Below, one piece after another: positions 22,640-45,807 of a DNA stretch of 64,000 bases. Each line of letters opens with the position of its first letter. Position 1 is the stretch's first letter. The notes under the pieces are model-generated. The model made no database searches. It saw only the letters and a program-made list of their open reading frames with translations, and was not told the DNA's origin. The stretch comes from Undaria pinnatifida. Its lineage: Eukaryota > Sar > Phaeophyceae > Laminariales > Alariaceae. The translations under genes were made by a program, and so were the position numbers. The stretch is from contig JABAKD010000029.1 of the NCBI GenBank assembly GCA_012845835.1, positions 4,676,000 to 4,739,999 of the forward strand, read 5' to 3'.

Positions 22640-23025
22640 GCGACCAAACGTACACCTACTGCGCGCACCACAGCGAGGGGCAAGGCCACAACACCCCCGA
22701 ATGCATCGTCATGCGTCGAGAATTCGACATATACTGCGCACGGCGACTTCCATAAATACCTGCAGACGCGGGGACTCGGGCGGTACGCCGGACGCGGAGG
22801 AGGGCGCGAGGCGGAAGGTAAATATCGACAGCAACCGTACCCAAACGACTCGGGTGCGCGTTGGAGTCGGGGCCACCCGCCGGAGCAGCAGAGAACGCCG
22901 CCGCCAGGACACGGGCCCGGGCCTCGCGGGTATGTGAACCGCTTCCCCGGAGGACGTGGCCACGAGAACCGGCGTCATCCTTCGGCCGGGCGCGGCCGAG
23001 GCCGGGGCGAGTGCTTCGGGCAGAT
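22640..23025 (+). pseudogene. gag: Copia-1 gag C-terminal piece with zinc knuckle, inverted in place
   Basis: The plus strand reads DQTYTYCAHHSEGQGHNTPE and then C, a C-x2-H-x5-GH-x4-C knuckle that binds RNA in capsid proteins, then MRREFDIYCA. After a one-base shift, a Gly/Arg-rich tail follows (GRYAGRGGGREAEG, RGYVNRFPGGRGHE, SAGRGRGRGE). Orientation is opposite to the adjacent protease block. It is the missing C-terminal partner of the gag N-terminal piece ending at 45807: both meet at a shared GCGACC. The right edge abuts satellite DNA. Together this marks rearrangement breakpoints. Confidence 0.7.
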
Positions 23026-25401
23026 GCATATCATATCGTCCCGGACCATTCATACCCATTGGGTACTGTTTCATCAAAATGACCATCACGCCTGTTGGAT
23101 CTCCAGGTATGTCGAAAACGTTACTGAATCCAAAACCACATACGGTAAAGGAAAACGAATACCACACACCTTACATAGAACATGTGAAGAAACTATTAAT
23201 ATTAATAGTTAAAAAGCCAGCCAACAAAAATGCTTCACTCAACCACGGCTAACGATCCTATCCGAACACACGTCGAGCAACAGGCCCACGAACTGCCCCG
23301 ACCCCAAACCCACTACACCTAGGTACGACGAACCAACATACACCCGCTACAACATCTCATAATATAGCATATCGTCCCGGACCATTCATACCTATTGGTT
23401 ACCGTTCCATCAAAATAAAGGTTACGCCTGTTGAATGTCAAGGTATCCAAACTCAATATGCCGAATCCAAATTCACATAAAGAAAAGAAAGGCCGCATGC
23501 CACACACCATATTTAGAACAAGCAAAAAAACTAGTCTCCAAGCCACACTGAAAAAATGCTTCACTTACCGACGGCCAACGATCCTATCCTAACACACATC
23601 GAACAACAAGCCCACGAACTGCCCCGGTCTTAAACTCACTGCACAAAGGTACGACAAACCAACATACACCCACTACCCCATCTCACATCATATAATATCG
23701 TCCCGCGGAATATCATATACCCACTACACCTTCTCACATCATATAACATCGTCCCGGACCATTCATACTCATTGGGTACCGTTCCATCAAAATGACGGCT
23801 ACGTCAGTTGGATGTCAAGGTACTCAAGTCGTAGTGCCGAATCGAATTCACATACATACGATAAAGAATGACCGCATTCTACACACCATGCGTGGAACAA
23901 ATGAAACAACGAGTGTCCGAGCCAGCCAGCCAGAATGCATCACTTACCGACGGCCAACGACCCTATCCGAATACACGTCGAACAGCAGGCCAAAGGACTG
24001 TCCCGACCCCAAACCCACTACACCTAGGTACGACGAACCAACATATACCCACTACCCCATCTCATACCGTATCGTATCGTCCCGGACAATTGATACCCAT
24101 TGGGTGCTGTTTCAATAAAATGACTATTACTCCTGTTGGGTACCAAGGTATCCAAAAAAAAAATACAAAATCCAAAACCACACACGGTAAAGAAGAACCG
24201 CATTCCACATACCTTCTTTAGAACAAGTGAAACAACTAGTCTGTAAGCCAGCCAGCAAAAATACTTCACTCACCGACGGCTGAAGATCCTATCCGAACAC
24301 ATATCGAATAACAGGCTCACGAACTGCCCCGACCCTAAAAGCACTAGTCTACACCTAGGTACGACGAACCAACATATACCCACTACACCACCTCATATAA
24401 TATCATATCGTCCCGGACCATTCATACCCATTGGGTACGATTCCATCAAGATGACGGTTACGCCTATTGGTTCTCAAGGTATCCAAAGTCAATATACCTA
24501 ATCCAAACCAACATACGGTAAAGAAGACCGCATTCCACACCCCATACTTAGAACAAGTGATAAAACGAGTGTCTAAGCCAGCCAGCCAAAATGCTTCACT
24601 TACCGACGGCCAACGATCACATCTGAACACACGTCGAACAGCAGGCCCACGAACTGCCCCGACCCCAAAATCACTAAACCTAGATACGACGAACCAACAT
24701 ATATCCACTATCTCATATCATATCATATCATATCGTCCCGGACCATTCATACCTATTGATTGGGTACCGTTCCATCGAAATGACGGTATCATAAAGTTTT
24801 GTATATCAAGGTATCATCAAAACTTATACCTGGTACAGAACACAAAACCTCACACGGTAAAATATTGCAGCATTCCACATACAGTACTTAGAACAAGTGA
24901 AAAATATTGTCTACAAGTCAGCCGGCGAAAATGCTTGCTTTACCGACAGCTAACGATCTTCTTCCAACACACAACGAACACCAGGCCCACGAACTACCCC
25001 GCCCCTAAAACCACTACAAATAGGTACCTACAACCAACATATACCCACCACCCATCGTATATCGTATCGTATCGTCTATGACCAATCATACCCGTTGGGT
25101 ACCGTCCTTTCGAAATGACGGTTGCGTCAATTGGACGTTAAGCTATCCAAACCAAACATTTACCGAATCCAAAACCACATAGGGTGAAGAAAAACCGCAT
25201 TCCACACACTATACTTTGAAGAAGTGTAAAAATTAGTGTCCAAGCCAGCCAGCAAAAATTCGTCCGTTACCCACCGCTAACGACCCTTTCCGAACGCACA
25301 CATAACAGCATCTTTCCGAAATGCCCCGACCCCAAAACAAGTACACCTAGATACGACGAACCAACGTATACCCACTACCCCATGTTATTATACCATATCA
25401 T
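23026..25401 (+). repeat. 325-bp satellite array, plus orientation (about 7 monomers)
   Basis: Tandem, diverged monomers of about 325-330 bp. Diagnostic pieces are TCGTCCCGGACCATTCATAC, CCCATTGGGTACCGTT, CGCCTGTTGGAT, GAACAAGTGAAACAACTAG, CCGACGGCCAACGATCC, ACTGCCCCGACCCCAAA and TAGGTACGACGAACCAACAT. Monomer joints hold a variable short (TATCA)n run. The array starts in mid-monomer at the gag breakpoint and is interrupted at 25402 by Copia-2. Confidence 0.95.
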
Positions 25402-25833
25402 TGTGAATAGCCTGTGAACACAATAGTTGTGTGGAGGCTCTTTCATCTATGCGAAGAGATGCAGAGGTGGCACCGAATTGTCTGTTAAGATCACTTGTGA
25501 TAAGAAAGAAAAGGGATAGTTTGGAAAGGGCGCTTGAGGCTAAAGAGCGAAGAAGATAAAGAAGAAGAAGGGAAAGAAGGAAGAGAAGGGAGAGTGGTCA
25601 TGGTGGGTTGCATCACTACTTGATCATCACGGAACAATGCCCGTAGTCGGTAGAATACCGGGACAACGGGACAACCTTAACATACTCAAATCTACGTTTA
25701 CATCTAAGTGCCACCGAAGATTTAACATAAGATTCAACGTAAGATTCAGGTGCATATCATATTCGTGCGAATAAACTGCTTGAATAGACTGAGCATTAAC
25801 TTAGCTTTGAATCTAAGGTTCATCCTCTCAACA
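25402..25833 (-). repeat. Copia-2 3' LTR
   Basis: Homologous to 29756-30173 with scattered substitutions and indels. The minus strand starts TGTTGAGAGG and ends GGCTATTCACA. A GGGGGCG purine tract lies just before it (plus 25834-25840). Confidence 0.93.
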
Positions 25834-27379
25834 CGCCCCCATAATGCAAAGTCAGATCGCTGCCTCATACGTAAAAATCAAATTCGTAAAAATCAAAAAC
25901 AATGGGTCACATATTCTGTCCTGTGTATCAACCGCGGCAATATGGATGTATCCATGTTATTCACACATTTACCAAAAAAAATCCTCACAAAGAAACATAC
26001 GCACAAAAATCTATGCTTGGTGTAATTAGCAGCGATAAATACCCTAGAAGATAAAACGCAAAGATACGTCTACTAGGTTTTAAGCACGCTTACTGAATTG
26101 CACCAAATAGATAAAAAATATAAAACAAATAAAGAGAATTGTGGAAAAGTGTCCATCACGACAAAATGAAACATTCTCGTTATTCAATTTTGTTTTTGTG
26201 TACTCACGTATTTCCGTACTAAAAAATAAGAAACAGATAGAATTACGAATACTGATCGTACTGTAATAGACCATAATGGGTAAAGTCATAGTCCATCAAC
26301 GAGCTATATCTTGAAAAAGAAAAATCAAACAAACAAACAAAGGTCACTCTGCTGTGAATTTACCACGTCACATCAATATGATCCTAGGATACGCAAAGTA
26401 CAATAGACTGTCTGATACTAATCGTACGCTGAAGAGCACAATATTTACAGTCTTTGTGAGCCTTTACTCCATAATGCTGGAATATATACTCGTACGCATT
26501 TTCGGTAGAACATAGCATATTGCTGTACGATCGTTTACTTAAGTTCATACGACTCATAGTTCCACCTTTACTTACGTTACTGGAGAGCAGTTGTAACTTT
26601 CTTTATACAAATAACTGCTGCACGAAGTAATTTTCCCTACTTTAATATCAATTTCAACCCGTGTCACCGATCCAAGCTGAAAATGCTAAAGAAGAGCTGG
26701 GAAACAGATAAGGGAAAATGTTGTGATGCGATGTGTACGTCGGCTTTGTTATTCCCCGGCCCATTGCAGTATTGTAGCTGAATTATAATAAGATAATCGT
26801 TTCGTCGGTACATTGCCTATTTGGTTGTGCGGAACGCGTTTCTCTGTCCTCGGTACATCACGGTTTGTTGGTGATTGAAAATGCCGATAGCACAGAGCAG
26901 AATTAGATTTCTTCTCTCTTATGAAACGCCGCAATCTTGTATCGAACTCCATAAAGCATGCTTTTGTCGATCATGGAGGTTGCCTGAGATAGTGTACAAA
27001 GTAGTCGCGATTGTCAAAGGCGGTCTTGCGAGCCGGAGTTGTAGTTGCGATTCAGGGTGTCGGAGCTTAAAAGGAGTTCTCCGTGCTAAAGTCGTTGATC
27101 TTCGAGCAGAGGTCGCTGACGGATTGCATTCTTCCGCTTGTGGTGAGGCCATAGGTTGCGCGTAGGAATTGGGTACCGAAATAGATACTGGATGTTTTTT
27201 TTTATCCATTCCAACAGCCCTTGTTACTATGAAACGGTCTCGAACTGCTGTTTCGGAAATCCTTGGTGTTGTAGGGCCAGCTGACGCGCTCTTACTTGAG
27301 AAGTAGCCGAGTCTGCTGTTGGTAGAACGGAAGGCGGCTCTTCGACGAAGGAGGCTTCTTCTACCCTGCTGTGATGGTC
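25834..27379 (-). other. Copia-2 3' interior, non-coding or too decayed
   Basis: AT-rich sequence with many stops. A 96-codon minus-strand frame (26919-27209) is Ser/Thr/Arg-rich like a Copia linker but has no diagnostic motif. The reverse transcriptase and RNase H expected here are not visible on either strand. Confidence 0.5.
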
Positions 27380-27620
27380 GGTATATTTCGCATGTACGCG
27401 TATCCTAGCAGGTTAGTACTCACCAGTTTTATACGTTCGCTGGAAAGGTTAGGCCGCAATGTCTTACGGTGTTTCTGTTTAGTGCTCTTTTTGAATTTGC
27501 ACGTATCGCATGCCGATAAAGTGGCTGAAAAAATTTCCTACACTCTGGGATATTGTTCCCCCTGACCATCACCTGCCCATTGGGATGACCCACCCTCCTG
27601 TGCCCGATGTTAGCTGGAAA
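27380..27620 (-). pseudogene. pol: Copia-2 pre-integrase and start of integrase
   Basis: Minus-strand pieces read RRVGHPNGQVMVR (the 'H..LGH' part) and then, in a shifted frame, CDTCKFKKSTKQKHRKT, which is the second Cys pair of the Copia pre-integrase zinc site. VSTNLLGYAY may be the start of the integrase core ('V.TDLLG'). Stops and frameshifts are frequent and the rest of integrase is lost. Confidence 0.65.
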
Positions 27621-27642
27621 GGTTTCAGGCGGGGAAGTAGCT

Positions 27643-28122
27643 TCAGTAGCAGTTGAAGCGTGAATAGCGAGGACGGTTCCGGTTTAAAAATGTTTTGCCA
27701 AAAATGGTCGGAAACGCTGTCTCAGGTGTTCGGCTCGTAGCATCAGTGGTGAGGTCGAGATGATGCAGAGAAGAGCAGTGGCTGTCTTTGCGTAGGGGTA
27801 TAGCAAATGCACCCATGTCCAGATACGAATTCGTGGCGATGATCATAGTGACCCCTCTCGTAGCTGCTAACCCCCCAAAAAATAGGTACCTGTCTAGCCC
27901 AGGTACGACCGCGACAGGAAGCTGCACCGAGTGCTTAGAGCCTACATGGTCCAACACTTGGACGAACAGAACCCCTTGACCAACGCCATAAAGGCGATGG
28001 TATCGCGCTACGTTGATTGGTACGGCAGGGTCCAGCTGTGCGTAGTGGTTCATTTTAAGTTCAATGCCCGGTAGAAACTGACCGTCGATGAAGTGGCTAG
28101 AAGCTCCGCTGTCCGCAGTCAT
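27643..28122 (-). pseudogene. pol: Copia-2 aspartic protease
   Basis: An open frame of about 160 codons starts MTADSGASSHFID, an intact Copia protease active site (DSGAS.H). Further on, PVAVVPGLDRYLFFGGLAA matches the 'VPGL..NLFS' strand that completes the fold. The protease would cut the polyprotein into mature parts. The frame closes at 27643 before the integrase. Among the Copia pieces in this window it is the best preserved enzyme domain. Confidence 0.82.
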
Positions 28123-29607
28123 GGAGAAGTCGACGGGCTGCGCATGTTGATAGGAGGTGCAGCGATGAAAGAATAGCCTATACCAGCTGGACGTGAGGAT
28201 GGACAGGGAGGAGTCGCGAAGGACGTACAGGTAGCTGCTGTAGTCGCAGGCGCAGTAGTGGATGGAGCATGTATCCCTGGGACGTAAGCTTCCATTTGTG
28301 TTGTTGAAGTTGGAGTTGTGGCGGTGTTGGTAAGAGCACTGTGATTGTTATTATGCCGACCATTTTGCTGACCAAGACGAGGGCGACTTGTTACGTTGTC
28401 GTCCCGCATTTGAGACCGACAGTCGCCATTATCGTGGCGATCGGTATTATGCATTGAATTTGTTGGAGGTGTTGGGGGAGGTTTTGTCCACGGCATCGTT
28501 CCCTTGCGTTTAACGCAATTTTGGAATCGATGGCCTGGCTTTTTGCAGTGTGAACGTGTCACTAATGCTGAGGGTGTTGACGTGACTACCATAGCAGACT
28601 CACGCCCCTTCGCTTTTCTCGAAGGCCCGTTTCGCAAAGCTCTATTTTCGTTCATATTGCGCATTGTTATCACAGCTCAGTTGAGTATGAAGTCATCATC
28701 TTCTGCGGCGCTATATATTATTTGCAGGTGCTCATCCGTGAGTCCTTTCCGCACTATGTCCAATGTGCTGTCATCGTTGAATGCCTCTCCCATGTCAACC
28801 AATTCATCCAGTAAATAGTATACTTCATTGATAAATATGCCTGGGTCTTGCCCATCCGTCATGACCATATGAGTTAGTTGTTGTTTGAGTAAACGTCTAC
28901 GTTGGCCGGTGGAATTTTGATATTTTCTAATCATACCATCCCAAGCATCCTTCCCATTCGCAAGTTTACTAGTTTCGGGTTGAATTGTAGAAGAAAGCTG
29001 GCCGCAGCTCCCGATGTGCTTAGGAAAAAGAAGTCGAACAGAAGACGATTGTCGCAGTGCCAGTGCTTGATGTCTTCCAAATTCGAGATGTTGTCATCCG
29101 TGGCCCATAAAGCTGATGTTGCGGCTGGGAGTGTAGAATTCCTGAAGATGAAGGTAGCAGATGCGCCGTGTGCACGGGAGTACTCCCTGCACTCAGCTGT
29201 AGATTTTCTGCTACTCCAACCGGGGGTGTTTCCCCGGACTGAGTGTCCGTTTCGTCAGCGGCCTGGCTGCGAGTTACAGCTCGTGAGGGCCTACCTCTTA
29301 TAGAAGATGGACAAAGTCTGATTTGTTTGGGCTCGGGGCAAAGACGCCCTTCCAGGATATCAGAGATCCCGGCGTGACGCATACTTATCACAGGCTCAAA
29401 CGTGCGTTTCCATACGTCGAACGTAAGCCCATTATACTTGCTGAGAGCTCTAACGAGCTTGTCTACCGCATCACCTTTTTTCGTGGACTCTTCCATGGTC
29501 GTGCTGATGCTGACGCTGATGCTGATCGCTGATGCTGATGCTGCTCGCTGATGCTGATGGCTGATGCTGATGCTTCTCGCAGATGCTGATGTTGGTGATG
29601 ATGCCAA
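28119..29607 (-). pseudogene. gag: Copia-2 gag
   Basis: The N-terminal part (29020-29607) has a Ser-rich leader encoded by a GATGCT microsatellite, then LSKYNGLTFDVWKRTFEPVI and DILEGR, the usual Copia gag start ('L.G.NF..WK......L'). The central UBN2-like domain is at 28677-29000 (KLANGKDAWDGMIRKYQNST, DPGIFINEVYYLLDEL, DIVRKGLTDEHLQII). The C-terminal frame (28119-28673) contains SHCKKPGHRFQNCVKRK, a zinc knuckle whose first Cys appears lost, then a Thr/Pro/Asn-rich tail. Gag forms the virus-like particle. Stops between the three blocks make it a pseudogene. Confidence 0.85.
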
Positions 29608-29645
29608 TTGTGCTCGCTGATGCTGATGCTGATGCTGATGTTGTA
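29490..29645 (+). repeat. GATGCT-type microsatellite within Copia-2 gag leader
   Basis: Imperfect repeats of GCTGATGCT. On the minus strand they encode Ser-Ile-Ser and His-Gln runs at the N-terminus of gag. Confidence 0.9.
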
Positions 29646-29739
29646 GCCGGCTTATTGGAGGTTTGTATCAAACTTCCCGGTAAGATGTGACAAACTTCAA
29701 TGAGATGTCGCTTGGTGCCGATCGATGTTTATATCGAAG

Positions 29740-29755
29740 GTCGAGGCTCATAACC
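29740..29755 (-). promoter_or_regulatory. Possible tRNA primer-binding site of Copia-2
   Basis: Directly after the 5' LTR the minus strand reads GGTTATGAGCCTCGA. It resembles the Met-tRNA-type site (TGGTATCAGAGC) common in Copia elements, with mismatches. Confidence 0.35.
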
Positions 29756-30173
29756 TGTGAATAGCCTGGTTGTGTGCAGCCTCTGTTTTCTATGCGAAGA
29801 GATGCAGAGGTGGCACCGAAGTGTTTGTTAAGGTCACTTGTGATAAGAAGAAAATGGATACTTTGGAAAGTGCGCTTGAGGCCAAATAGAGAAGAAGAAG
29901 AAGAAGAAGGGAAAGAAGGGAGAGAAGGGACAGTGATCATGGTGGGTTGCATCACCGCTTGATCATCACGGAACAATGCCCGTAGTCCGGTAGAATACGG
30001 GGATAGCGGGACAACCTTAACATACTCAAATCTACGTTTACATCTATGTTGCACTGAAGATTCAACGTGAAAATTAACGCAAGGTTCAACTGCATATCAT
30101 ATTCGTGCGAATAGACTGCTCGAATAGACTGTGCGTTAACTTAGATTTTAAACCAAGGTTCATACTCTCAACA
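29756..30173 (-). repeat. Copia-2 5' LTR
   Basis: Partner of 25402-25833. It contains a GAA/GAAG-rich purine stretch on the plus strand (about 29880-29930) and a conserved GATCATCACGGAACAATGCC. Confidence 0.93.
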
Positions 30174-30550
30174 ATCATATCCTCCTGGACCATATACACC
30201 CATGGGGTACTGCTTCATCAACACGGCTATTACACCTGTTGGATCTCAAAGTTTTCAAAAAAGAGGTACCGAATCCAACACCACATACGGTGAAGGAAAA
30301 CCGCATTCCACACACGATACTTAGAACAAGTGAAAAAACTAGTGTCCAAGCTAGCCAGCCAAAATGCTTCACTTACCGATGGCCACCGATCGTATCTGAA
30401 CACATATCGAACAGCAGGCTCACTAACTGTTCCGCCCCAAAATCACTACACCTAGGTACGACGAACCAACATATAACGACTACGCCATACCGTATCATAT
30501 CATAGCTTGCTGGACCATTGATATCCATTCGGTACTGTTTCATCAAAATA
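30174..30550 (+). repeat. Satellite array continued after Copia-2
   Basis: Slightly more than one monomer in plus orientation, in phase with the part left of Copia-2. It ends abruptly at the MITE; the sequence right of the MITE is not satellite. Confidence 0.9.
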
Positions 30551-31033
30551 GGGCCTCACCCATTATGCGGGCATAGTTATTGACAAATTTGGCTCTAGAG
30601 GCGATAGGAAAAGACATGAGTTAAATTTTGGGCCAGGGGGTGACAAAACAGGCGAAATGTAGAGCAATACGGTGGCAAATCAAGCGAAGTGTAGCATAGC
30701 GTGCCTATGCCACACTAGTTTAGGCATCGGGTGGGTTCACAGCTGGGGAACGATTCTCAATTAGCGTTGGGAGTCGCGAGCCGGGCCTCATACGTAAACA
30801 CACCAACATCGATTGACTTTAGCGGTGAAAATTTAGCGTAATCTGCTGCTTGCTGCGTACAAGTCTTTCGCTGTTGTCCGCATTCATAACGGAAAAAAAT
30901 ATACAAAAAAATAGCGCCTGGTTGCCAAACCTTTGGCATAATTGGGAAAAGTGGCGATAGTTTGCATATTGGGGCACTAGCCACCCCGAAAAGAGGGCCA
31001 AAAAAACAAACAAACGCATAATGGGTCAGGCCC
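30551..31033. mobile_element. TA-flanked MITE, 483 bp
   Basis: Terminal inverted repeats GGGCCTCACCCATTATGCG (30551-30569) and its complement at 31015-31033 match at 18 of 19 positions. TA flanks both ends (30549-30550, 31034-31035). There is no coding capacity. This size and structure fit a mariner/Stowaway-type miniature element. Confidence 0.78.
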
Positions 31034-31035: not shown

Positions 31036-31867
31036 CCGTGTATATATCTAAGGGTGGCTGTCGCTAATAAGGATTTACATGTCCTTGAACCATACCCATG
31101 GTTCTTCTCTGCCAAAAACAAAATATTTTGCTTGGTCGAGACTCGCGTGCATGCTGCGCTCGGGATGCCTGCCACCCTCACCGCGCTCGGCGCCCGCTTC
31201 CAGGCTTTCCCCGCTCTATGTTCCTGTGACGTCCGTCTCCCGCGCGGATAAGTGCAAGTCGTGCCCTGTGGCGCTCGTTTCAACACTCGGCTGCTCCCGG
31301 CCTCTACCCACCAGCCTCTTCCTGCTGGCATCCGCTCTGTTCAGAAATATTTTACCGGGATGGAAGGGCTCCGCATAGGTGCCGCCATACGCCGGCACCC
31401 ATGCTCCGGAAAGGGCAGGGCAACACTTCAATTTGTTCGATTCAACCCTTCCTTGGTAGAGTAAAAAAATTACCCACACACAATCATTGTTTGCGCGTAC
31501 AGTATGTAAGTAAGGTAATGCCAACGGTTCGATATAGACTAACAATCACAACAATGTACTGTAATTAATAGCTAGCATTTTAACAGCGAATCCGATTCGA
31601 GTTTCATTCATCAGATTTCGATCGGATAAATCCGAGCAAACACCCCCTGACCCTTTAGTCTGGCGACGAAACATCTCGGGTGTGTTTCTTATTATAGGTT
31701 TACACGATCAAGCAGCCGGGGGCAGTAAGGTGACTGACCATGTCCGCTGCGAATGATTAGAGAAGTTGTACATGGACCATTGCTTTCCAAAACAGTCTGA
31801 TTTACCCCCTTGAAGGATTTATTGTTTCCACGCACATATAGAGCTGCCCCAAGCGCACGCCTCCCCT
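31036..31867. other. Unassigned; GC-rich frame with one stop
   Basis: A plus-strand frame from 31021 to 31464 has a single internal TAA near 31249 and a Cys/Arg/Pro-rich product without recognisable motifs. The overlapping frames are equally open because the stretch is GC-rich, so coding is not supported. The rest is non-coding. Confidence 0.3.
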
Positions 31868-32226
31868 CCCCCCCCCCTACCCCCGATCCCCTTTTGATCG
31901 AAACCAGCCCCCCACGTCCTTAACAAGTCTGCCCTCCCTCCGCCGGTTATTCGACTCACAGGTTTCACTTAATAAACTGATGCATTTCCTTCTACAGCTA
32001 GCTGTCAGATGTTGTCCCTTCAGAAATGGGTTTTATAGTTTCCGCGCACAGACTGCCTAACATCACCCTGTTGACCCTGATAGCTACACTGTAGTTGCAA
32101 GGGGAGTCGCCGACCTATATCCTTAATGAGGACACACAACTCGTAATACGCGCGATCGGAGTATCACACACAGCTTGCAAATATGAGTTTCGACATAATA
32201 TTCGATATCACAGCTGGAATGTATTC
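31868..32226 (+). repeat. C/G-tract interspersed repeat, copy 1
   Basis: Shares TGTCAGATTTTGTCCC-type sequence, GTTGACCCTGATAGCTACAC, CCTATATCCTTAATGAGGAC and GAGTTTCGAC with the other copies. It starts at a C-run and ends at CAGCTGGAATGTATTCATA. Confidence 0.85.
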
Positions 32227-32227
32227 A

Positions 32228-32540
32228 TATATATCCCCCCCCCGCGCCCCCCTCCAAACCCGCTCGCTTTTGATCAAAACCAGGCCCCCGCTTTCCCTTC
32301 ACAGCTGTCAGATTTTGTCCCCCTCAGAAACGGGTTTTATAGTTTCCGCGCACAGACTGACTAAAATCATCCTGTTGACCCTGATAGCTACACTGTAGTT
32401 GTAAGGGGAGTCGCCGACCTATATCCTTAATGAGGACACACAACTCGTATGCGCGCGATCGGAGTATCACACACAGCTTGCAAAGATGAGTTTCGACGAA
32501 ATCTTCGATCTCACAGCTGGAGTGTATTTAAATTTTTATA
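32228..32540 (+). repeat. C/G-tract interspersed repeat, copy 2
   Basis: Starts at a C-rich tract and ends at GCTGGAGTGTATTTAAATTT, the same terminal position as copy 1, with a shorter upstream part. Confidence 0.85.
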
Positions 32541-32757
32541 ATATATTTCGACGAAATCTTTGATTTCGACGAAATCTTCGATCTCACAGCTGAATTCAAT
32601 CAGGGTCAACAGGATGATTTTAGTCAGTCTGTGCGCGGAAACTATAAACCCGTTTCTGAGGGGGACAAAATCTGACAGCTGTGAAGGGAAAGGGGGGCCT
32701 GGTTTTGATCAAAAGCGAGCGGGTTTGGAGGGGGGCGGGGGGGGGGGGGGGGAGGGG
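32541..32757 (-). repeat. C/G-tract interspersed repeat, inverted partial copy
   Basis: After a duplicated TTTCGACGAAATC stretch, the family continues in the opposite orientation and ends in a long G-run (about 32735-32753). Together with copy 2 it forms an imperfect inverted repeat. Confidence 0.8.
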
Positions 32758-33119
32758 CAATTATAATATGTAATAATACAACAGCAGTCATTTCAGATGA
32801 AATCGATCGGCGCAACTTGCTTGGGTATCGTATTGTTCCAGCAGCAGTAACACACCTCATTTCTATTCTTTTTCCCATCCCACTCAGTGTGATTATCGCA
32901 TTATTCTCGCCCTCCCAGTAATATAACTTTGATCCGGGGTCTTATAGCGGGATCCCCTTCCCCATCCCACTACGGTACCTGCCCTAACTTTTATCGCGAG
33001 GAGATTTCAGCATCAAACTCCCTGTTCGATTCGCGTCGATTTGTACCTATCTACGCTGATAGGATATTTCCCCAATTAATTAGTTTATCTTTTATCTCCC
33101 ATATATTTCAAAAACCTGA
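32758..33119. other. Non-coding, nothing recognised
   Basis: Mixed-composition sequence between the C/G-tract repeats and the tRNA-like repeat. No frame or motif stands out. Confidence 0.4.
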
Positions 33120-33300
33120 AGCCAACAAAGCCCACAACGGTGGTTATATAACTCAAGGACCAACGCTAGTATTAATAGTAGTAATAGCAGAAGTATTAGA
33201 AGTAGTAGTTGTGGTATTTGTAGCAATAGAAGTATAGGTATAAGTAGTAGCAATAGTAGTAGCAGTGGTGATATTAGTAGTAGTAGTCGTAGTAGTAGTC

Positions 33301-33331
<31 letters not shown>

Positions 33332-34180
33332 CAGTAGAAGTAGTAGCAGTAGTAGCAGTAGTAATAGTAGTAGTGGCAGTAGTAGTAGTAATAGTAGTAG
33401 TAGTAGTAGCAGTAGTAGTAGTAGAAGTAGCATTAGCAGTAGTAGTAGCCGTAGTAGTAGCAGTAGTAGTAGTAATAAAAGCATTATTAGTAGTGTTCAA
33501 GTGTAACACCACTAGACCACCGGGACGACCGGCTCTATATCACTCACTGCCCCGGTGGCGTATCAGGTTACATCTTCGAACCTGGCATAGGCCAGCTTCG
33601 TGATTTTGAATCCGCCCGAGTGCGCACTCGTATAATTTGTCGTCTTTGTGCACTAATTGACTTGCGGAAAGCGCGAGAGCGTGAGTTAGCAACACTCGAT
33701 GAAAAATCGACGACAAGTGGGTGCTGAACCCTAAGCGTGAAACAAATCGAAGGCAATATCCGGGGGGGGGAAGCGAGAGACGACACCTATGACCACGGCT
33801 TGCATGTTCAGAAGCTGAAAAGTAGCGGTGTGAAAAAAACAACAACCTAGAAGAGATGATCAATCAGCAATCAGCGGCATAAAGGTGAACCTCAAGTACG
33901 AAGCAACACAAACTTGTTTCTCAATTACGTACCAACACACGACCGCTTGAACTTGCACGGCAAAATACCACAGCAACGGAGTGAGGGACCACAGCATCAG
34001 CAAAGCACTCCATCCCGCTGCCTGCTCGCCACCACCTACAAGTGGCGCAGCTTAACAAAAGGAGGAACTTGTAAAATACAACCCTCGAGGCCCCGGGGAC
34101 GAAGCCACTCGCAATGGTGCTTGCTGTGTGGCTCTTCCTGGTGTAGTAATTGTAGTCACTACGATCTCTTCCTCGTTTAG
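33120..34180 (+). repeat. tRNA-like (SINE-like) tandem repeat unit 1
   Basis: First of three related units; the marker CACAACGGTGG is at about 33134, 34258 and 35090. This unit is lengthened by an AGT microsatellite. At 33549-33615 it contains a tRNA-like stretch: an A-box-like TGGCGTATCAGG and, about 40 bases on, a B-box-like TTTTGAATCCGCC. The tRNA fold itself is not closed: the acceptor ends do not pair. This suggests a pol III-type SINE head. Confidence 0.6.
33165..33490 (+). repeat. AGT trinucleotide microsatellite (about 325 bp)
   Basis: Long imperfect (AGT)n run with GCAGT and AATAGT variants. It yields spurious poly-Val and poly-Leu reading frames. Confidence 0.95.
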
Positions 34181-35030
34181 TCATGCGTGCGCTTCAGCAG
34201 TTCGTTGATCCATTTCTTTTCCACATATTTCTGCAACTAAATATAGCTAACAAAGCTCACAACGGTGGTCATTTAACTCAAGGGCCAACGCTAGTATTGA
34301 TAGCAGTAGTAGTATTCGAGTGTAACACCACTAGCCTACCGGGGCGACCGGCTCTATATCACTCACTGCCCCGGTGGCGTATCAGGTTACATCCTCGAGC
34401 GCGGTATAGGTCAGCTTCGTCAGTTCGAATGCCCCTAAGTGCGTACTAGTATAATTCGTCGTCTTGTGCACGAATTGACTTACTTGCGGAAAGCGCGAGA
34501 GCGTGAGTTAGCAAAACTCGACGAAACATCGACGACCAGAGGGTGCTGAACCCTTTGCGCCAAAACAAATTGACGGCAATAACCTGAGGGGGGGGGGGGA
34601 AGGACGACACCAGGTCATGTGACCACGGGTTGTATATCCAGAAGCAGGAAAGTAGAGGTGTGAAAAAAAAAAAAAATGCTCAGAAGAGACGACCAATCAG
34701 CAATCAGCAGCAAAAAGGAGCACGTCAAGTACGAAGCAACACAAACTTGTTTCTCAGTTACGTACTAACACACGACCGCTTGAACTTGCCCGGCAAACGA
34801 CCACAGCAACGGAGTGAGGAACCACAGCATCAGCAAAGCACGCCATCCCACTGCCTACTCACCACCACCTTCGAGTGGCGCAGCTTAACAAGAGGAGGAA
34901 CTTGTATAATACAACCCTCGAGGCCCCGGGGACGAAGCCACTCGCAATGGTGCCTGCTGTGTGGCTCTTCCTGGTGCAGTAATCGTAGTCACTACTATCT
35001 CTTCCTCGTTTAGTCACGCGTGCGCTTCAG
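34181..35030 (+). repeat. tRNA-like (SINE-like) tandem repeat unit 2
   Basis: Second unit without the long microsatellite. Its A-box-like TGGCGTATCAGG begins near 34376 and its B-box-like CAGTTCGAATGCCCC near 34421. Flanking segments such as CTCGAGGCCCCGGGGACGAA are shared with unit 1. Confidence 0.65.
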
Positions 35031-35370
35031 CAGTTCGTTGATCCATTTCTTTCCCATATATTTCTGCAACTAAATATAGCCAACCGAGCTCACAACGGTG
35101 GTCATTTAGCTCAAGGACCAACGCTGGTATTGATGGTAGTCATATTCTAGTGTAACCCCACTAGAACACCGGGGCGACCGGCTCTATATCACTCACTGCC
35201 GCGGTGACGTATCAGGTTATATCCTCGAGCCTGGTACAGGTAGGTATAGATCAGCTTCGTGAGTTCGAATACCCCCGAGTGCGTACTCGTGTAATTTTTC
35301 GTTTTGTTGTGCACTAATTGACGTGCGGACAGCGCAAGAGCGTAAGTTAGCAACACTCAATGACAGTTGG
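35031..35370 (+). repeat. tRNA-like (SINE-like) tandem repeat unit 3, partial
   Basis: Third unit, with A-box-like TGACGTATCAGG (near 35206) and B-box-like GAGTTCGAATACCCCC (near 35260). Similarity to units 1 and 2 fades near 35370. Confidence 0.6.
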
Positions 35371-36060
35371 ACGATCAATGTAACTTGTAATATAACACGC
35401 GCTCAAGCCCTGCAGACGTCAAGCAAAACAAACGCTCGAGGGAATACCACCGCAAAATTCAATACTTCAGCAACTAGCTACCGTTTGGAAATGATGCCAA
35501 TTTAGAAACCATCTATGTAGAACCTGAAGACGTTGAGATACAACCGAAGTCGCAAGATTATCTTCTCAAAATACAATATTTTAGCAACTTCTCCCTTGTC
35601 TCGCTCATCATCCACCCGCGTTCACGTCGAGGTGCCCAACGGATAAGGAAGGACGAGGGGCGTTGGAGCCTCCCCGCGAAGACTTTTGCCCCTCGGAACC
35701 GCCCCCGAGGACTTTGCACGTGTTTTATTCGTTCAAGCCCTGCAGACGTCATGAAAACCAAACAAACGCTCAAGCCCCGCACACGTCAAGCAAAACAAAC
35801 GCGCGAGAGTATGCCACCGCAAAATTCAAAAAATTACAATAGCAACTAACTACGGTTTGGAAATGATGCCAATTTTGCAAATCATCAAGGCGCTGCAGAC
35901 ATTAAGATACAACCAAAATCTTCGGAATTCCTCCTCGACAAGCGGTATTTTTGCAACTTCTCGCTTGGCTCGCTCGGCATGCGTCCGCGTTCACGTCGAT
36001 GCGGGGAACGGACACAGCAGGACGAGGGGCGTTAGAGCCGCCCCCCGAAGGCGGCGCTCG
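35371..36060 (+). repeat. Two-copy tandem duplication, about 370-bp period
   Basis: Segments at about 35400-35690 and 35775-36050 share CAAGCCCTGCAGACGTCA, TTGGAAATGATGCCAATTT, CGCGTTCACGTCGA and GGACGAGGGGCGTT. No coding frame spans them. Confidence 0.75.
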
Positions 36061-36290
36061 AACGAAGCTATTTGACCCAGAATTCCAGTTCCGTGAATCG
36101 CATGCTTAGGCCGAGACGAACAAACCTTCTCACCGAATCCCCGAAATAAATGATTTTATAAATATTATCACGTTGTTTACTACATCTAACTGGGTTGCAT
36201 ACTACACCTAACATCAATCCTTTTACAATAATACACATTACCAGGCGGGTGATATAAAGAAGTGTCTTCTTGGTGCAACCGTCACATTCG
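36061..36290. other. Non-coding, nothing recognised
   Basis: AT-rich stretch between the tandem duplication and the palindromic C/G-tract region. Confidence 0.4.
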
Positions 36291-37590
36291 TCCCCTTTAA
36301 GGGTTTATAGTTTCTGCGCACATATAGAAATGCCCCCCCCCGATCCCTCTTGTTCAAACGCCCAACCTAAAATCAAAACCAACCGGAGCAGTAAACACTA
36401 CCAGCCAGCTGATATCATCTAATTACCCATCTAGCCATCCATGCCGTAGCTGCAACTCATCTCCGCCCTCCGCACCCCCCACCCCTGTTTGTTCCCCGCC
36501 CAGTTCGTTCAAACGCCACTTGCAATTGAACTCGGCCAGAGTAATAACACTTCTAAGCGACTGGTATCACGTCAATATATTTCTAGTCATCCATGACGTA
36601 GCTTTCAATCGCCCCCCCTCCCCCCCTCCAACGCCCCCTCCTTCCCCACACCCCGCACGATCGCCTAGACCTAGCACCGCGCGTACAGCAACCCCCTACA
36701 TATATGATTAATGCGCGCGATCGGAGGATCACACAAAATGTGGCGAAGATCAGTGTCGACCAAATCCTTGATCTCATAGCTGGAGTGTATTTTAATATTA
36801 TATGTGACCTAAACCTCTTGAAAACCCTTCCCCCCCCCCTTTCACCCCCCGCCATTTTTTTTTTTTTTTCTCTCCTCGCTTCCTCTTGCTTAAACGCCCC
36901 ATCTAATATCGAAATCCGGAAATCCGCCAGAGAATGAACACTTCCACGCCCTGAATATCGCCTCGTTATCGTTTCAGAGCCGTCTATGCCGCTGCTGCAT
37001 TTCCCACCCACTACCGCCCCCAACGCCCCCTCCTTCCCCACCACCCGCACCATCGCCTAGACCTAGCACCACGCGTATAGCAAAACCCTACATCTATGCG
37101 ACCTAAAGTCCTCCCCCCCCGCCCCCCGCCCCCCCCCGGCACATCCCCTCCCCCCTCCCCCACAAGAAGGATTTATAGTTTCCACGCACAAATTGACCTG
37201 CCCCATCTCCCCCCTCCCCCCCTCTCCCCCCCTCCCGCCCTCTTTTTGATCAAAATCAGGTGCCCACGTCTCTCAAAACTCCGCCCTCCCCTCGCCGGTT
37301 ATTCGACTTACAGTATTCGCTTGATAAACAGATGCATTTCATTCCGCAGCTGTCAGATTTTGTCCCTCTCAGAAACGGGTTTTGTAGTTTCAGCGCACGG
37401 ACTGACTAACATCACCCTGTTGACCCTGATAGCTACACTGTAGTGTTGCAAGGGGAGTCGATGACCTATATCCTTAATGAGGACACACAACCCGTAATAC
37501 GCGCGATCGGAGTATCACACACAGCTTACAAAGATGAGTTTCGACAAAATATTCGATCTCACAGTTGGAGTCTATTTCATAGTGTATAAT
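36291..37590 (+). repeat. C/G-tract element, left arm of a 2.6-kb imperfect palindrome
   Basis: C-rich on this strand. In order it has modules with TCGCCTAGACCTAGCACC, ATGTGACCTAAACCTC, repeated C-runs and then the shared block ending ACAGTTGGAGTCTATTTCAT. The same modules recur in reverse order on the other strand at 37598-38880. The two copies meet head to head near 37592 with about a dozen bases between. Confidence 0.8.
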
Positions 37591-38880
37591 ATATTTCAAG
37601 AAATGAAAATACATTCCAGCTGTGAGATCGAATATTTTGTCGAAACTCATCATTGTAAGCTGTGTGTGATACTCCGACCGCGCGTATTACGGGTTGTGTG
37701 TCCTCATTAAGGATATAGGTCGGCGACTCCCCTTACAACTACAGTGTAGCTATCAGGGTCAACAGGGTGATATTAGTCAGTCTGTGCGCGGAAACTAGGA
37801 AACCCGTGTCTGAGGGGAACAAAATCTGACAGCTGAGGAGGGAAATGCATCAGTTTATCAAGGGAATCCTGTGAGTCCAATAACCGGTGAGGGGGGTCGG
37901 AGTTTTGAAGGACGTGGGGGCCTGATTTTGATCAAAAGCGAACAGGGTTAGAGGGGGGGGACTGCGGGGGGGGGGGACTGGGGGGGGGGGGGACCGGAGG
38001 GGGCGGGGGGGGGCGGGGGGGGGGGGAGGCGGACGGGCGGGCAATTTGTGCGTGGAAGCTATGAATCCTTTAAGGGGATAAATCTGACGGTTTTGGAAAA
38101 AAAAAAAAAATGCACCAGTTTATCATAGGGGGGGGTTGGGGCGGGGGTTGGGCGGGTGGGGCAGCTCAATCTGTGCGTGGAAACTTTTTTTTTCTAGGGG
38201 ATAAGTGTGACGGTTTCGGAAATATTGCATCAGTTTATCATGTATATCCTGGGGTAAGTCGTACAATCAGTGAGTAGAAGGCGGAGTGTTCGAGGGGGTG
38301 GGGGTGGGATGGGGTGGGGGGGTGGGGGGGTGGGGCGTGGGGGCGGGGGGGGGGGGGGGGCTTTGGGTGGCATATATGTAGGGGTTTGTTATACGTGTGG
38401 TCCTAGGTCTAGGCGATGGTGCGGGGGGGGGGGAGAAGGGGACGTTCGGGGCGGGCGGGGGGGGGGGACAGCGGCATGGATGGCTCTAGAAAGATAATGA
38501 GGTGATATCCAGTGCGTGAAGTGTTTATTAATTTGGCGGATTTCAATATTAGGTGGGGCGTTTGAGCAAGGGAGGGCAGGAATGGGGGGGGGGAAGAATT
38601 TTTGAGGAGGTTTAGGTCACATATAATATTCAAATACACTCCGGCTGTGGGATCAAAGATATGTAGGGGCTTGTTATACGCGTGGTCTAGGTCTAGGCGA
38701 TCGTGCGGGTGGTGGGAAAAGAGGGGGCGTTGGAGGGGAGGTTGAGGGGGGTGGGGGAAAAGAATGAAAACTACGTCATGGATGGTCAGCAAGATAATGA
38801 CGCGGTATCAACTGCGTAGAGGTGTTTATTGCTCTGGCCGATTTCGATTGTAAGTGGGGCGATGGAACAAACTAGGCGGA
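37591..38880 (-). repeat. C/G-tract element, right arm of the palindrome
   Basis: Mirror image of 36291-37590. It begins AAATGAAAATACATTCCAGC and carries long G-runs (about 37948-38030, 38320-38362, 38424-38468). Module order is the same as in the single copy at 50348-51445, so each arm is a copy of one element. Confidence 0.8.
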
Positions 38881-40205: not shown

Positions 40206-40206
40206 G

Positions 40207-40262: not shown

Positions 40263-40355
40263 TTCCATCCTTTGTGAACAATAATGTATGACACCCGTTC
40301 GAAGATGACACCCCCAAAGGTGAATGTCACTGCAAGGTTTGGCCAAACGATGGCC

Positions 40356-40612
40356 CCTGGCTGGCCCTTCTTCGCCAAGTGTTACCGGCGGTTCAGTCTA
40401 GGCCGAACAATTGCGAGAACGTCAAATAATTGCTGCCTGATGCGCCGAGAAGGCACGAAGTGTCCCCTGTGCATTTACAATGGTACGAGGGCTTTGATAA
40501 GACATTGCAGAAGGATCACGACCCAGGGTGAAAGTGGGTGGTCGTCGCGCGCAGCAGATCAGCATAGATAGGCAACGAGCAAGCGTGCGGAGGGTCTCGT
40601 CGAGGAATCAAG
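40356..40612 (+). repeat. 257-bp direct repeat, copy 1 (coding-like)
   Basis: Matches 42008-42262 at an offset of 1652 bp. One frame reads WLALLRQVLPAVQSRPNNCE and SPVHLQWYEGFDKTLQKDHD, broken by stops. The same frame is conserved in copy 2, which suggests an ancestral coding segment. The family is unknown. Confidence 0.75.
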
Positions 40613-42007
40613 GTTCGGCCAAAAGATAGCCCCTGGGCCGCACAAAAAAAAATCCTGAACATCTACCTCCAGTTTTTGCATTTGATCGGCAGGGAGGGGG
40701 GGGGGGGGGGTCTGCCAGCACACTTGATCCTATATAAAGGACTATGCAAGTCTAATTCCTATATAAAGAACCATGCAACACTAATTCCTATATAAAACAA
40801 AGTGACTTGGCCATAGACTAGGCACTGGGTGCCACCCACGGCGGAAAATGGGTTTAGTCGAACAAGAGGCGAACCCTCGGCAACGTAGGTGTGAGGTCAG
40901 TGATACTTGGTGCCACTACTGTACGGGCGTAGTACATCGTCCTCGAGACGCCGCCGACACCACGAGATCGAACCGGGCCAGTACACAAGCTTGCACAAGC
41001 CGACACAACAAGCTAAATAAACGAAAACGAAGAAGAGCCTTGCGGGGAGGGGGCGGGGGCGGCCGAGGGTTCGGCTGGCGGGGCTGCCTCAAATGTGATT
41101 TAGGCGTAAGCAGTCTTGGCCGGGTTAGGTATAAGAAAAGATCGTGGGAGCAAGTAGAGTGAGACGAGGAGAGAGGAGAGCCCTGCTTCGGGCGGGAGAG
41201 CTGATGCGAGCAGTTTCTGCAAACACCTGAAGGTGTCCGTCTATGATCGCAGGGAATATTATTATTGTTGCACGGCCGAAATCGGCCATTTTTTCATGTT
41301 TCTCCAACGGCCGATCTTGGCCGTTCGGGCAAAAAGGGGGAGGGGGGGGAAGCTTGGAGGGGAGGCGGGGGAGCAACGACAAATAGCAAGCAAGATCATC
41401 TGCTTCACAACTACCACCGTGTTGTACTGTCTGTCTGTGGCGTCCATTTAATCCAAGTTTGATACAACATGTGTGAGGCGATCCAGACTACGGTAGGGGG
41501 GTCCGCTTTTGCGCCTTTTATTTCCGTGGCCAGGGGTCACTCGCGCGAGTAACCCCTTTGTTCCTATGCGAATTCACGTATTCTTCACGTTTTACATTGG
41601 CGAAATTAATTCGCAATGCAAAGGTGATCTAAGCTGCGCCGAAACAAGTGCTTAAACCATCTTCATCTGTGGGGTACAGAGCCACTCGTGCGAGTGGCTT
41701 AAACACACCAGTGAAAATGGGGGTACCCCCCCTACCGTAGCCTCGGTCGGCCTTTTCCAGAAAAGCAAGATTAGAACAGGACTTGACACAGCAAAACACG
41801 CTTGTGTACAGTAACAAAACCTTGCAAAAGTCCTAACCCCCGTCGATGGTGCTCCATGGTGCTTTCTTGATGACCAAAAAGCCACAAGACGACGTTAAAC
41901 GGCCTCAACATTCGACGAAACTCAGGGAAAAAAAAACATTTTTTTCGGCGTCGGACCCGGGGGGGGGGGTAAGTAGGTGTCCGGGAGTTTTTTTTTGTGC
42001 GCCCTTG
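40613..42007. other. Unassigned; triplicated TATA-like motif and a G-rich segment
   Basis: CCTATATAAA occurs three times about 30 bp apart (near 40729, 40758, 40788), each followed by AAG.AC.ATGCAA-like sequence, so it is a small tandem repeat and not a proven promoter. A G-run lies at 40695-40711. A perfect short inverted repeat (AACGGCC...GGCCGTT) is at 41308-41327. No gene is recognised. Confidence 0.4.
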
Positions 42008-42262
42008 CCTGGCTGGCCCTGCTCCGCCAAGTGTTACCGGTGGTTCAGTCTAGGCCGAACCATTGCGAGAACGTCAAATATTTTCTGCCTGAAGCGCGGA
42101 GAAGGCACGGAGTGTCCCCTGTGCATTTACAATGGTACGAGGGCTTTAATAAGACATTGCGGAAATATCATGGGGCAGAGTGAAAGTGGGTTGTCGCCGC
42201 GAGCAGCAGATCAGCATAGGCAACGAGTCAGCGCGCGGAGGCGCTCGTCGAGGCATCAGGAG
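42008..42262 (+). repeat. 257-bp direct repeat, copy 2 (coding-like)
   Basis: Second copy of 40356-40612. The frame here (ENVKYFLPEARRRHGVS, LQWYEGFNKTLRKYHGAE) is open further than in copy 1. Confidence 0.75.
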
Positions 42263-42529
42263 GGTGGTTGTGAGGATCACGCTTCTAATTAATATGAGAA
42301 AGACGGCAACAGTTTCTTGGCTGGACACAAAATACTCTAGACGGGGATACAAGTTGTGTGCAAACGAGAATATGGCGTATAGCGTAGATCAGATGTCGTT
42401 CAGATATAAAGTCGACTAAACTTTCGTCATTTTTTTAATAGGAGTATATTTTGTACCAGGTATTATTTGTTTTGTTTCTCTATTATTATTGTTGGATTAC
42501 GATGACTGATTCTACCACCCTCAAGTTTT

Positions 42530-43190
42530 GTAGAGTTTGTGGATTCCGGGTAAGGGTATGGGGGTCTTACAGAACTTACAGAAGTTTCGGGTACGGGTAT
42601 GGAAGTGTTACAGAACTTCCAGAAGTTCCGGGTATTGTGGCACAGCCATGCAGAACTCACAGAAGTTCCGGGAGGGTACAAAACATGCTGTACCCGTACC
42701 CGGGGTATTGTGGCACGCGTCTTACAGAAGTCACAGAAGTTCCGGGTACGGGTGTAGGGGTCTTACAGAGCTTCCAGAACTCCAGGGTATGTGTATGAAA
42801 GTTTTACAAAACATCCAGAACTTCCGAGTATTGTGGCACGGGCTTACAGAACTTTCAGAAGGTCCGGGCAGGTGTAAACATGCTGTACCCATACCCCGGG
42901 TCTTTGTGGCATTGGCGTACATAACTTCCAGAAGTTCCGGGCTCGGGGTATGAGTGACATACAGAAGTTACAGAAGTTCTTGGTAGGGTTATACCCGGGG
43001 TAAATACCCCGGGTATGGCTTTGTGTGTATCCTACAGACACAACGAAAAAAGGAAGCACGGGTACGAGTATGAATGTCGTGCAAAACTCACAGTCGTTCC
43101 GGGTACGGGTAGGGTTGTACAGAACTCACAGAAGTCCCGGGTACGGGCAATTCCCGGGTAAATACCCGTGTCAAAAAGGGCAAAAAACAA
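42530..43190 (+). repeat. Minisatellite, about 41-bp unit with palindromic inserts
   Basis: Diverged repeats of TTACAGAACTTCCAGAAGTT followed by CCGGGTACGGGTATGG-type sequence. Some units carry longer inserts with self-complementary TACCCGGGGTA and ACCCGGGGTAAATACCCCGG. The array ends near CCCGGGTAAATACCCG at 43155-43170. Confidence 0.85.
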
Positions 43191-44260
43191 TAAATTGGCT
43201 GGTAAAATAAGACACAATTGTCAACGCATTTCCGATTACTGCGATTGGCATTCTGCATACACGGATGCACTCATAGGAAACAACACATATATATACGTAC
43301 CACAGTAGCCCATTTCTGTTCGTGCTTTAGTTCACAAACCCCGTTTGTGTTGTTGCTGTGTTCCACAAATTTCACGGTAAGAATCTTTCCAACTTCCCAA
43401 GCAACGACTTCCTCCGCGGTTACAGGTTTTCCTCCCAAATTGCCGTACTGTTGCTCAAGAACAAAACTTTGCAATAAGAGTAATACTACTGTATGTTGAA
43501 TACTACCAATAGGTATAATTATAGTATTAGTATGGTAAGCCCGAAAATCTTTCCAACCGACAACAAAAACAAGAAAAAAAGATACCTGGTACATTGTAAA
43601 AAAAAAAAATAATATCAATGCCGATCACAGCAACTACCATTATAGACTAATAATTACAAGTACCTAATTATAATACTTCGAGCATTATTTACTCTTATAT
43701 CAATTACCTGTTACATATTTAGACAGTAACTATTACATTCACCTAAAAGATAAATATGAACGAGCACACGATACTACTATAACAATTGCAATTATATTTG
43801 GAAGACAGGGCCGTATCGTGTCTGCCATGATCTGAGGGGCACTCTACCCGGCATTCCGGTGGGAATAGCCGGGGGCAAGGAGACGTCAAGAAAATTGTTG
43901 TACCCAACTAAGAGAGGCTGTAAGAAGCGTTACACTCCATGGTCGTGCCCGATCCTTCTTTCCAAACGGGACAAAACAGCAACACCATGGCCAAGCCACT
44001 AACAAATTTGTTCGAACACTACACACACGCCAAATGAGACCCACGCGACTCCACCCCACCTAGAACGAAGTCACATGTTGATGCACCTAGATCAACTGAG
44101 CCGACTCCGCGTGAAAATATCTAGGCGGACCCGCCCACATAAGAGAAATCACGAAACAATTTCGCTGCCCATGGTTCCAAGAATAGCAACCACGAGAGGC
44201 GCACCAGTACGTGTGGCCACACGGAATGCGTGCGTTGAGGTAATATTTGAAAACCCCATA
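43191..44260. other. AT-rich non-coding DNA
   Basis: No recognisable gene. A 115-codon minus-strand frame at 43271-43618 is unsupported. The right part (43800-44260) is the DNA that flanked Copia-1 on its 5' side before the rearrangement. Confidence 0.45.
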
Positions 44261-44265
44261 CAACC

Positions 44266-44769
44266 TGTCGGACGTACTCACTCCATTGTCAGATTGGAAA
44301 CGAGAATCCGTCGAAAAGATGGATCGGAAAATTTTGGGGGTTTCGTATATGTGCGGGATGGATTTCCACAACGGGATTTTGTATTGTTAGTTTTTATGTG
44401 CCCGAATAGTATCACTGTATTTTTCGACTCCATTTTTGCCTCTATCTTGTGTCTATTCTGTGTTTCTTCTACGGCTACAACGCTAAGGGCTACCACGCCC
44501 CATCAATAATGCAAGGGCTATCACGCCTGGCCCACTGCACGGTTACTATAATACGCCTGTGTATTTTCATCCCGGCTACCTCGCCACAGATCCGAGTTCT
44601 ATTTCTGGGTTATCACACTTGAGCTATCACCCTCCACCACACACGCAAATCGGGCTATCACACCCACCTTAGTTAGTAGTTCGTAGTGTACCGATCACCG
44701 GCTATTACGCCACCTTGCTTCTCTCCCTACACCACCACCGGGGCGTCACACGTAACAACCTACTTCACA
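44266..44769 (+). repeat. Copia-1 5' LTR (displaced)
   Basis: Starts TGTCGGACG and ends CTTCACA, in inverted orientation relative to its homologue at 5224-5719. It carries the same repeated GGCTATCACGCC-like motif. The preceding CAACC is the near-complement of AGTTG beside the 3' LTR. Confidence 0.82.
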
Positions 44770-45807
44770 CGCTAGCTACAACGATCGACATCGAACGAGT
44801 GGGTTGTGCGTTGCTACGCGCCAATGAGGAGAACCGATACAAGACCTTTGTCGGGGGAAAGGTTAAGCACCCCTCCCGCAACGGGGGAGAGGGATGCGAG
44901 TCCTCCTCCGCCAATGCACAACATCATGGAGGAGAGGACGCGAGTCCTTCCCCGCCAATGCGCAACATCATTAAACAACAGCAGCTCCATCAGCAACTTC
45001 ATCGAACATAATCGCGGACCTAGCCAACGCCCTTCGCCAAGTACTGCAGATGACCAACGAGTGAGAGCCAACCGCCCCAACAGGAGGTGCGTACGATTCT
45101 AGACCCATAGAAATTCGTCAGAAAAACGAAATGCTTGCTTGGTCTGGAAAGTTTGAGAACGGGTAAAGTGTTGCATCAGCTTGCCGTGTTTTCCGAGGTT
45201 CTGTTCTTTCCTGGGTCTCGGCTGAAAGGTTGATGGACGTATTGAAGGGAGAATCGATACCAGTAGGGCTTATGGACGTAGACCTGTCACGGCACATGAT
45301 TTACTTCGGGAAGGAGAGAGTAGATAAGTAACTCAAGCTATGGTCACGACTGATCGCAAAAATCACAGCCCAACCAGTTCAAGAAACGGTTTTTGCAGCG
45401 GGGTCACCCCAAGAAGCGTGGAGGGTGTTTGAGTCTCACTACGCTGTCAAAGTGAACATGAGAGGGAATTAGAAGAGAGTGAGTGGAATGAACTGAGGCA
45501 GAAGGAGGGAGAGAACATCATGTCGTTTTACGGTAGGGCAAAAGCCATAAGGATGAAGCTAGAATTATACGGAGATAAGCGACCAGACGCATCTATGCGC
45601 AAACATATTGCCCGTAGAATGATCCCAACTTTCAGGCTATGTAGTGACCACGTGCTTCTCTTTCCCGATCTTTCGAGTCGTACCTCGGGAAATATGCTCA
45701 GGAGAGCTGCTCACGAGCTGGAGCGCAATGATATATTGGGAGATCAGGAAAAGAGAGAGTGGAGACAAGGCATGCACTGACCGCAGCCGACGTGGGTCGG
45801 GGCGACC
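44770..45807 (+). pseudogene. gag: Copia-1 gag N-terminal and UBN2-like part (displaced)
   Basis: After a 5' leader, broken coding sequence is seen from about 45085. Pieces include LWSRLIAKITAQPVQETVFA, GSPQEAWRVFESHYAVK, NIMSFYGRAKAIRMKLEL and LRRAAHELERNDILGDQEK, matching the Copia gag order of 'W..L..I......V....S..E.W..L...Y' and later helices. Stops fall near 45329 and 45469, with a frameshift near the end. The piece stops at GGGGCGACC (to 45807); the zinc-knuckle continuation lies at 22640. To the right is satellite in minus orientation. Gag would form the particle shell. Confidence 0.8.

Follow-up and report, generated by a model that had tools for sequence, protein, structure and literature searches.

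The closest described rearrangements are the mouse structural variants of type H5, 'Del(s)+Inv' (Yalcin et al. 2012, PMC3439969), in which an inverted piece abuts lost sequence and some breakpoints carry a few bases of microhomology and micro-deletions. Passages of that paper discuss the Del(s)+Inv variants as possible progeny of one process (PMC3439969). Transposable elements at inversion breakpoints have an example in the Galileo inversions of Drosophila, which the cited part of the literature attributes to ectopic recombination (PMC2775673). Among brown algae, the sections of the source used here give 35 Copia families for Ectocarpus (PMC12477816).

The locus considered here lies in a 64-kb window, the whole stretch of DNA that was analysed (64,000 nucleotides; contig JABAKD010000029.1, positions 4,676,000 to 4,739,999), from the kelp Undaria pinnatifida. 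In it, a Copia retrotransposon copy and the satellite adjoining it were very probably split by a three-break inversion, one balanced event repaired by end joining. It is like the mouse H5 class, as the cited passages portray that class, in that inverted sequence abuts lost sequence and in the few bases of microhomology and small losses at its scars (PMC3439969). It differs from H5 in having two adjacent inverted pieces, of 22.8 kb and 419 bp, with a common breakpoint, and in that the kelp state is read from one assembly, whereas the mouse variants came from a comparison of strains (PMC3439969). With the Galileo inversions, so far as the cited part describes them, it shares a transposable element at the breakpoint; the kelp element, however, was cut internally, and nothing at the locus points to recombination between two of its copies (PMC2775673). 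The features that link it to Ty1/copia elements, such as those of brown algae, are long terminal repeats (LTRs) of the TG...CA type, a 5-bp target-site duplication (TSD) and an RVT_2 domain in its kelp siblings. This copy has degenerated, however; the inversion split it, and it carries an 11-kb minisatellite. It adds one more case to a class already known, that of complex inversions with deletion, and as a genome change it is clear but of an ordinary kind.

Broken adjacencies and new joins

Along the window the order is protease (minus strand), the C-terminal part of gag (gag-C, plus), satellite (plus) and, further on, the 5′ LTR with the N-terminal part of gag (gag-N, plus), followed by satellite again (minus). 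This order and these orientations, which the first-pass annotation had read from the letters, were the same in a self-comparison and in the alignment of family copies. Three ancestral adjacencies are broken and three new joins made; the sequences concerned are gag, a host repeat at the place where the element inserted, and the satellite.

The genome searched for copies of the family and of the repeat comprised 511,146,479 bases in 68 contigs. With gag-C as the query, at least 42 matches were found (40 of 126 candidates were scored), one of them being the window and the other 41 falling in 39 places, and the stretches around all 39 were compared with the pieces of the window. All 39 sibling copies carry gag-N and then gag-C in one orientation. 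In the window, gag-C is a 419-bp piece on the plus strand (22609..23027), inverted relative to pol, in which a CxxHx5Hx4C-like knuckle can be made out by eye. The 5′ leader with gag-N, collinear with gag-C in every sibling, occupies 44901..45814 on the plus strand; at 44901 the query begins, not the gene. Between the bases that correspond to the end of gag-N and the start of gag-C, 35 siblings have 1 base, two have −4, one has 2 and one has 249. The two gag pieces, 22 kb apart in the window, abut in the family, with only one base lost at the gag join. Most of 11 aligned family copies read GGCGACCGGGGTGGGAGGAATGCTGG at this join, either exactly or with one or two bases changed, and the window holds GGCGACCGGGGTGG on one gag piece and AGGAATGCTGG on the other, so that the ancestral join was ...GGGGTGG, one lost base and AGGAATG.... 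A meeting of the gag pieces at a shared GCGACC, as had been proposed, was rejected; family gag has two such words ~40 bases apart, and the proposal arose from their coincidence, as in the family the second word is separated from gag-N by another ~40 bases.

The first-pass annotation had also named comparison with other family members as a check, and the comparison bore it out, with normal gag order throughout and protease after gag-C, in the orientation expected once the segment is un-inverted, in 37 of the 39. The two exceptions are L063, in whose stretch nothing matched protease, and L003, where the rearrangement is compound and the piece of protease beside gag-C is inverted. The spacer between gag-C and protease in the 37 collinear siblings has a median of 202 bp (range 155 to 436). 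When the spacers of 8 siblings were used as queries, only short matches at chance level were found in the window (best E 0.003).

A further test, additional to those of the first-pass annotation, came from the host repeat. Its left-hand half lies at 43816..44265 on the plus strand, with the 5′ copy of the target site, CAACC, at 44261-44265, and its right-hand half at 4553..5223 on the minus strand, with the 3′ copy, CAACT in the orientation of the element, at 5219-5223. The halves are thus 39 kb apart in the window and point opposite ways. A search with the 5′ flank found at least 39 other places of the repeat (40 of 304 candidates were scored), matching up to base 44264. In 11 of 11 repeat copies fetched, window sequence 43816-44264 is joined directly to the reverse complement of 5223 down to ~4553, at CATACAACT, and all 11 empty sites read CAACT. 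Since the fetched copies run unbroken through the target site, the element lies inside a repeat whose halves now point opposite ways and are separated; the TSDs of the window copy, CAACC and CAACT, agree at 4 of 5 bases. The support from the empty site is independent of gag and of the satellite. The repeat itself was seen to extend for ~1.1 kb and has 304 candidate places in the genome, of which 40 were scored.

The satellite has a monomer of ~325 bp. Its left array (plus strand) lies at 23028..25401 and continues, by self-comparison, past a nested element at 30174..30553, and its right array, at 45815..58138, runs on the minus strand, opposite to the left one, and is interrupted by other repeats. 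Among 219 self-matches in the two stretches, all 63 between left and right are inverted, and those within the left (6/6) and within the right (150/150) are direct. At the scars both ends break off within a GATAT tract that is part of the monomer. Of the monomers measured, 13 of 19 on the right and 5 of 6 on the left have 18 bp between GATATGAT and GTGGG, and the others have 13 to 22; 2-3 of those 18 bp are left across the two satellite ends. The ends are in opposite orientation and fit in monomer phase, with ~15 of the normal 18 bp lost between them. The earlier claim that the ends rejoin in correct phase therefore stood for phase and orientation and had missed the ~15 bp.

These alignments moved all three scars by a few to some thirty bases. 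The first, J1, had been placed at 22639|22640, but the family has 22609-22639 between gag-N and the start then claimed for gag-C, and the scar is at 22608|22609, where, in an alignment to 11 family copies, protease is joined to the gag-N-side end of gag-C with no shared bases. The second, J2, set earlier at 23025|23026, is at 23027|23028 by family and satellite alignments and joins the pol-side end of gag-C to satellite with one shared base (C). The third, J3, given as 45807|45808, is at 45814|45815 by the same alignments and joins gag-N to satellite with four shared bases, GTGG (45811-45814). Shared bases at all three were read by eye. The losses amount to 1 bp in gag, ~202 bp in the spacer between gag-C and protease and ~15 bp in the satellite.

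By self-comparison, gag-C, gag-N and protease are each present only once in the window, which has no N bases. The rearrangement is balanced, with no piece duplicated and ~202 bp lost, and all the ends were reused, three adjacencies being broken and three scars present, as in a multi-break inversion. The split arrangement is beyond chance, because gag is collinear in 39/39 copies and the empty site is present in 11/11 fetched repeat copies. The inversion model of the first-pass annotation accordingly gained support from family collinearity, satellite phase and the empty site, and it needed revision in its exact scars, in the GCGACC join and in the ~202-bp loss that it had overlooked.

One event or several

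In the favoured history, a Copia-like element first landed in an interspersed repeat older than itself; the un-inverted order puts the near end of the satellite array ~14 kb away. Three scars show where the chromosome later broke: inside gag, ~420 bp beyond that point in the interval between gag and protease, and within the satellite, in a GATAT tract. The 22.8-kb piece, which carries gag-N and the 5′ LTR together with one half of the host repeat and some of the satellite, was rejoined upside down, and so was the 419-bp gag-C piece, at its old place. The joins show 0 to 4 bases of microhomology and losses of 1, ~202 and ~15 bp.

We infer one event by end joining rather than a series of inversions, because, of two successive inversions, the second would have had to cut almost exactly where the first had left its scar. 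A history in which the 419-bp and 22.8-kb pieces were turned at different times is possible but rather unlikely. Each of its steps would be a simple inversion, and microinversions are known in other genomes; in either order, however, the second inversion must cut almost exactly at the scar of the first, since gag-N and gag-C abut but for one base, and the scar alignments hold no trace of an intermediate join.

Gametophytes are haploid. The assembly was made from the male gametophyte clone M23 with PacBio reads (subread N50 11,463 bp) and, as the relevant portion of the genome report has it, was built with Falcon, Arrow and Pilon and then scaffolded with Hi-C (PMC7058681). That reads from different repeat copies were misjoined, and that the alga holds no inversion, is very improbable. 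All three scars do lie in repeats, the N50 of 11.5 kb falls short of the 22.8-kb piece, and the order was taken from the assembly. Nevertheless, pieces 22 kb apart fit to within one base, the window holds the two halves of a single disrupted repeat, and J1 and J2, 419 bp apart, are both within reach of one read. A misjoin between copies, moreover, normally yields no small reversed piece. Misassembly is thus judged unlikely because a gametophyte clone was sequenced with PacBio reads and the window has no N, and hence no marked scaffold gap at the joins.

It is hardly probable that gag-C was inverted before insertion, by a template switch during reverse transcription, and that a plain inversion later cut beside it. 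Inverted internal pieces do occur in two of the 39 siblings, as a 148-bp inverted duplicate in L021 and as an inverted protease piece from the gag-C end in L003. The piece in L021 is an inverted duplication, whereas gag-C in the window moved without leaving a duplicate; an inverted gag-C was found in 0/39 siblings; and this route, too, needs reuse of a scar almost to the base. Non-allelic homologous recombination between inverted repeats can be set aside as extremely improbable. Inverted satellite copies do flank part of the segment now, but they point the same way in the un-inverted order; at the scars gag meets satellite or protease, no scar shares more than 4 bases, and the ancestral piece has no long inverted repeat at both ends.

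Several observations weigh against a single three-break inversion, which is still the reading preferred here. The order is known from one assembly alone, and a k-mer survey gave 0.48% heterozygosity despite the haploid gametophyte, according to the same portion of the report (PMC7058681). The two siblings with inverted internal pieces leave room for a copying mechanism for the 419-bp piece. The Kimura two-parameter distance (K2P) between the two LTRs of the split element, 0.126, is about the divergence between different copies (85-90% identity) and does not by itself pair the LTRs, and one of the five TSD bases differs. Lastly, the similarity of satellite monomers is flat with distance (0.795 near, 0.781 far), and with no such decay the adjacency of the satellite ends is a matter of phase and orientation only.

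One genome is enough to read the rearrangement because there is a reference for the ancestral state in the element family, another in the host repeat and a third in the satellite. For a brown alga, this sequence record of three breaks and their rejoining is rather complete. The same three-way test of family copies, empty site and satellite phase could be used to catalogue inversions genome-wide without a second strain.

The Copia element and its siblings

The LTRs of the split element pair with each other and stand in opposite orientation in the window, the 3′ LTR at 5224..5719 (minus) and the 5′ LTR at 44266..44769 (plus), and both read TGTCGG...CACA. TG...CA LTRs, a 5-bp TSD and a Copia-type reverse transcriptase (RT) are defining features of Copia elements. 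The ends of the LTRs and the length of the TSD were set from ten sibling pairs that were fetched, seven of which had both ends in the stretch; read by eye, five of the seven TSDs are perfect and two have no match, and the TSD of the family is 5 bp. Divergence between the LTRs was considered as proof of their pairing and put aside as not decisive, the TSD and the empty site being used in its place.

A degenerate RT and RNase H region at 5760..8200 (minus), its RNase H recognised by eye only, is homologous to sibling stretches. The frame of the window carries 24 stops across it, and the homologous stretches of two siblings match the Pfam domain RVT_2 (PF07727), at 9.5e-36 in L043 and 1.7e-24 in L047, so that a Copia-type RT is recognised through these siblings, by homology. 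The region at 21030..22608 (minus) holds the protease/beta-barrel and presumed integrase part of pol. Here a weak Pol_BBD match at 0.002, below the cut-off, was the only one obtained in a Pfam search of seven of the window's own frames, and sibling L004 gave 1.3e-10. No Pfam match to integrase was found in 21030-21514, and sibling L014 gave only gag_pre-integrs, below the cut-off. The places of gag, Pol_BBD and RT fit the order gag-PR-INT-RT-RH, with the integrase lacking a Pfam match. By these sequence features the element is classed as a degenerate member of a many-copy family of Ty1/copia-like LTR retrotransposons.

In sibling L003 (170-2563 in element orientation), an inverted LTR piece is followed by gag, an inverted protease piece at the end of gag-C (equivalent to window position 23016) and a forward protease piece. 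L021 has an inverted duplicate of its protease region, 148 bp long (2337-2484), of a kind that could result from a template switch. Given L003, the family may be prone to compound inverted pieces. It is doubtful that such internal pieces recur in the family and have the 3′ end of gag-C, or a point close to it, as one of their junctions (window 23027, with L003 at 23016); if they did, the GC-rich stretch coding for RGRGRG would be a hotspot of breakage or template switching that repeatedly turned pieces of the element, with the large inversion as its most extreme product.

Minisatellite and other passengers

A GC-rich minisatellite at 8224..19134 (minus), with a 78-bp subunit and larger units of 633 and 789 bp, lies between the RT and integrase regions. 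This 11-kb array is not part of the inversion. The minus strand has 3674 codons in a row without a stop there (8245-19269). In two siblings whose pol stretches are longer, the landmarks that lie 13 kb apart in the window are separated by ~1.7 kb, which leaves no room for the minisatellite. A related minisatellite was seen downstream of gag-C in 11 of the 39 sibling gag stretches (L005, L007, L008, L015, L016, L017, L019, L027, L061, L063 and L069), and in 10 of these 11 only a short piece of protease, ending near window position 22467, was matched before it. The siblings with the minisatellite may be a deleted, non-autonomous subfamily. No match to it was found in ten sibling 3′ stretches.

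Inspection by eye also showed a probable DNA transposon in the pol region (~19439-20797), whose terminal inverted repeats are ~21 bp long (TACWGTTAGGYCTGGGACTGG). The element nested in the left satellite array is a second LTR element of ~4.8 kb (25402..30173, minus), with LTRs at 25402-25833 and 29756-30173, a K2P of 0.117 between them and a perfect 5-bp TSD, ATCAT. Repeats rich in G/C tracts, present in mutually inverted copies, occupy 31784-38870 and recur inside the right satellite array at 50340-51440 and 54557-54676.

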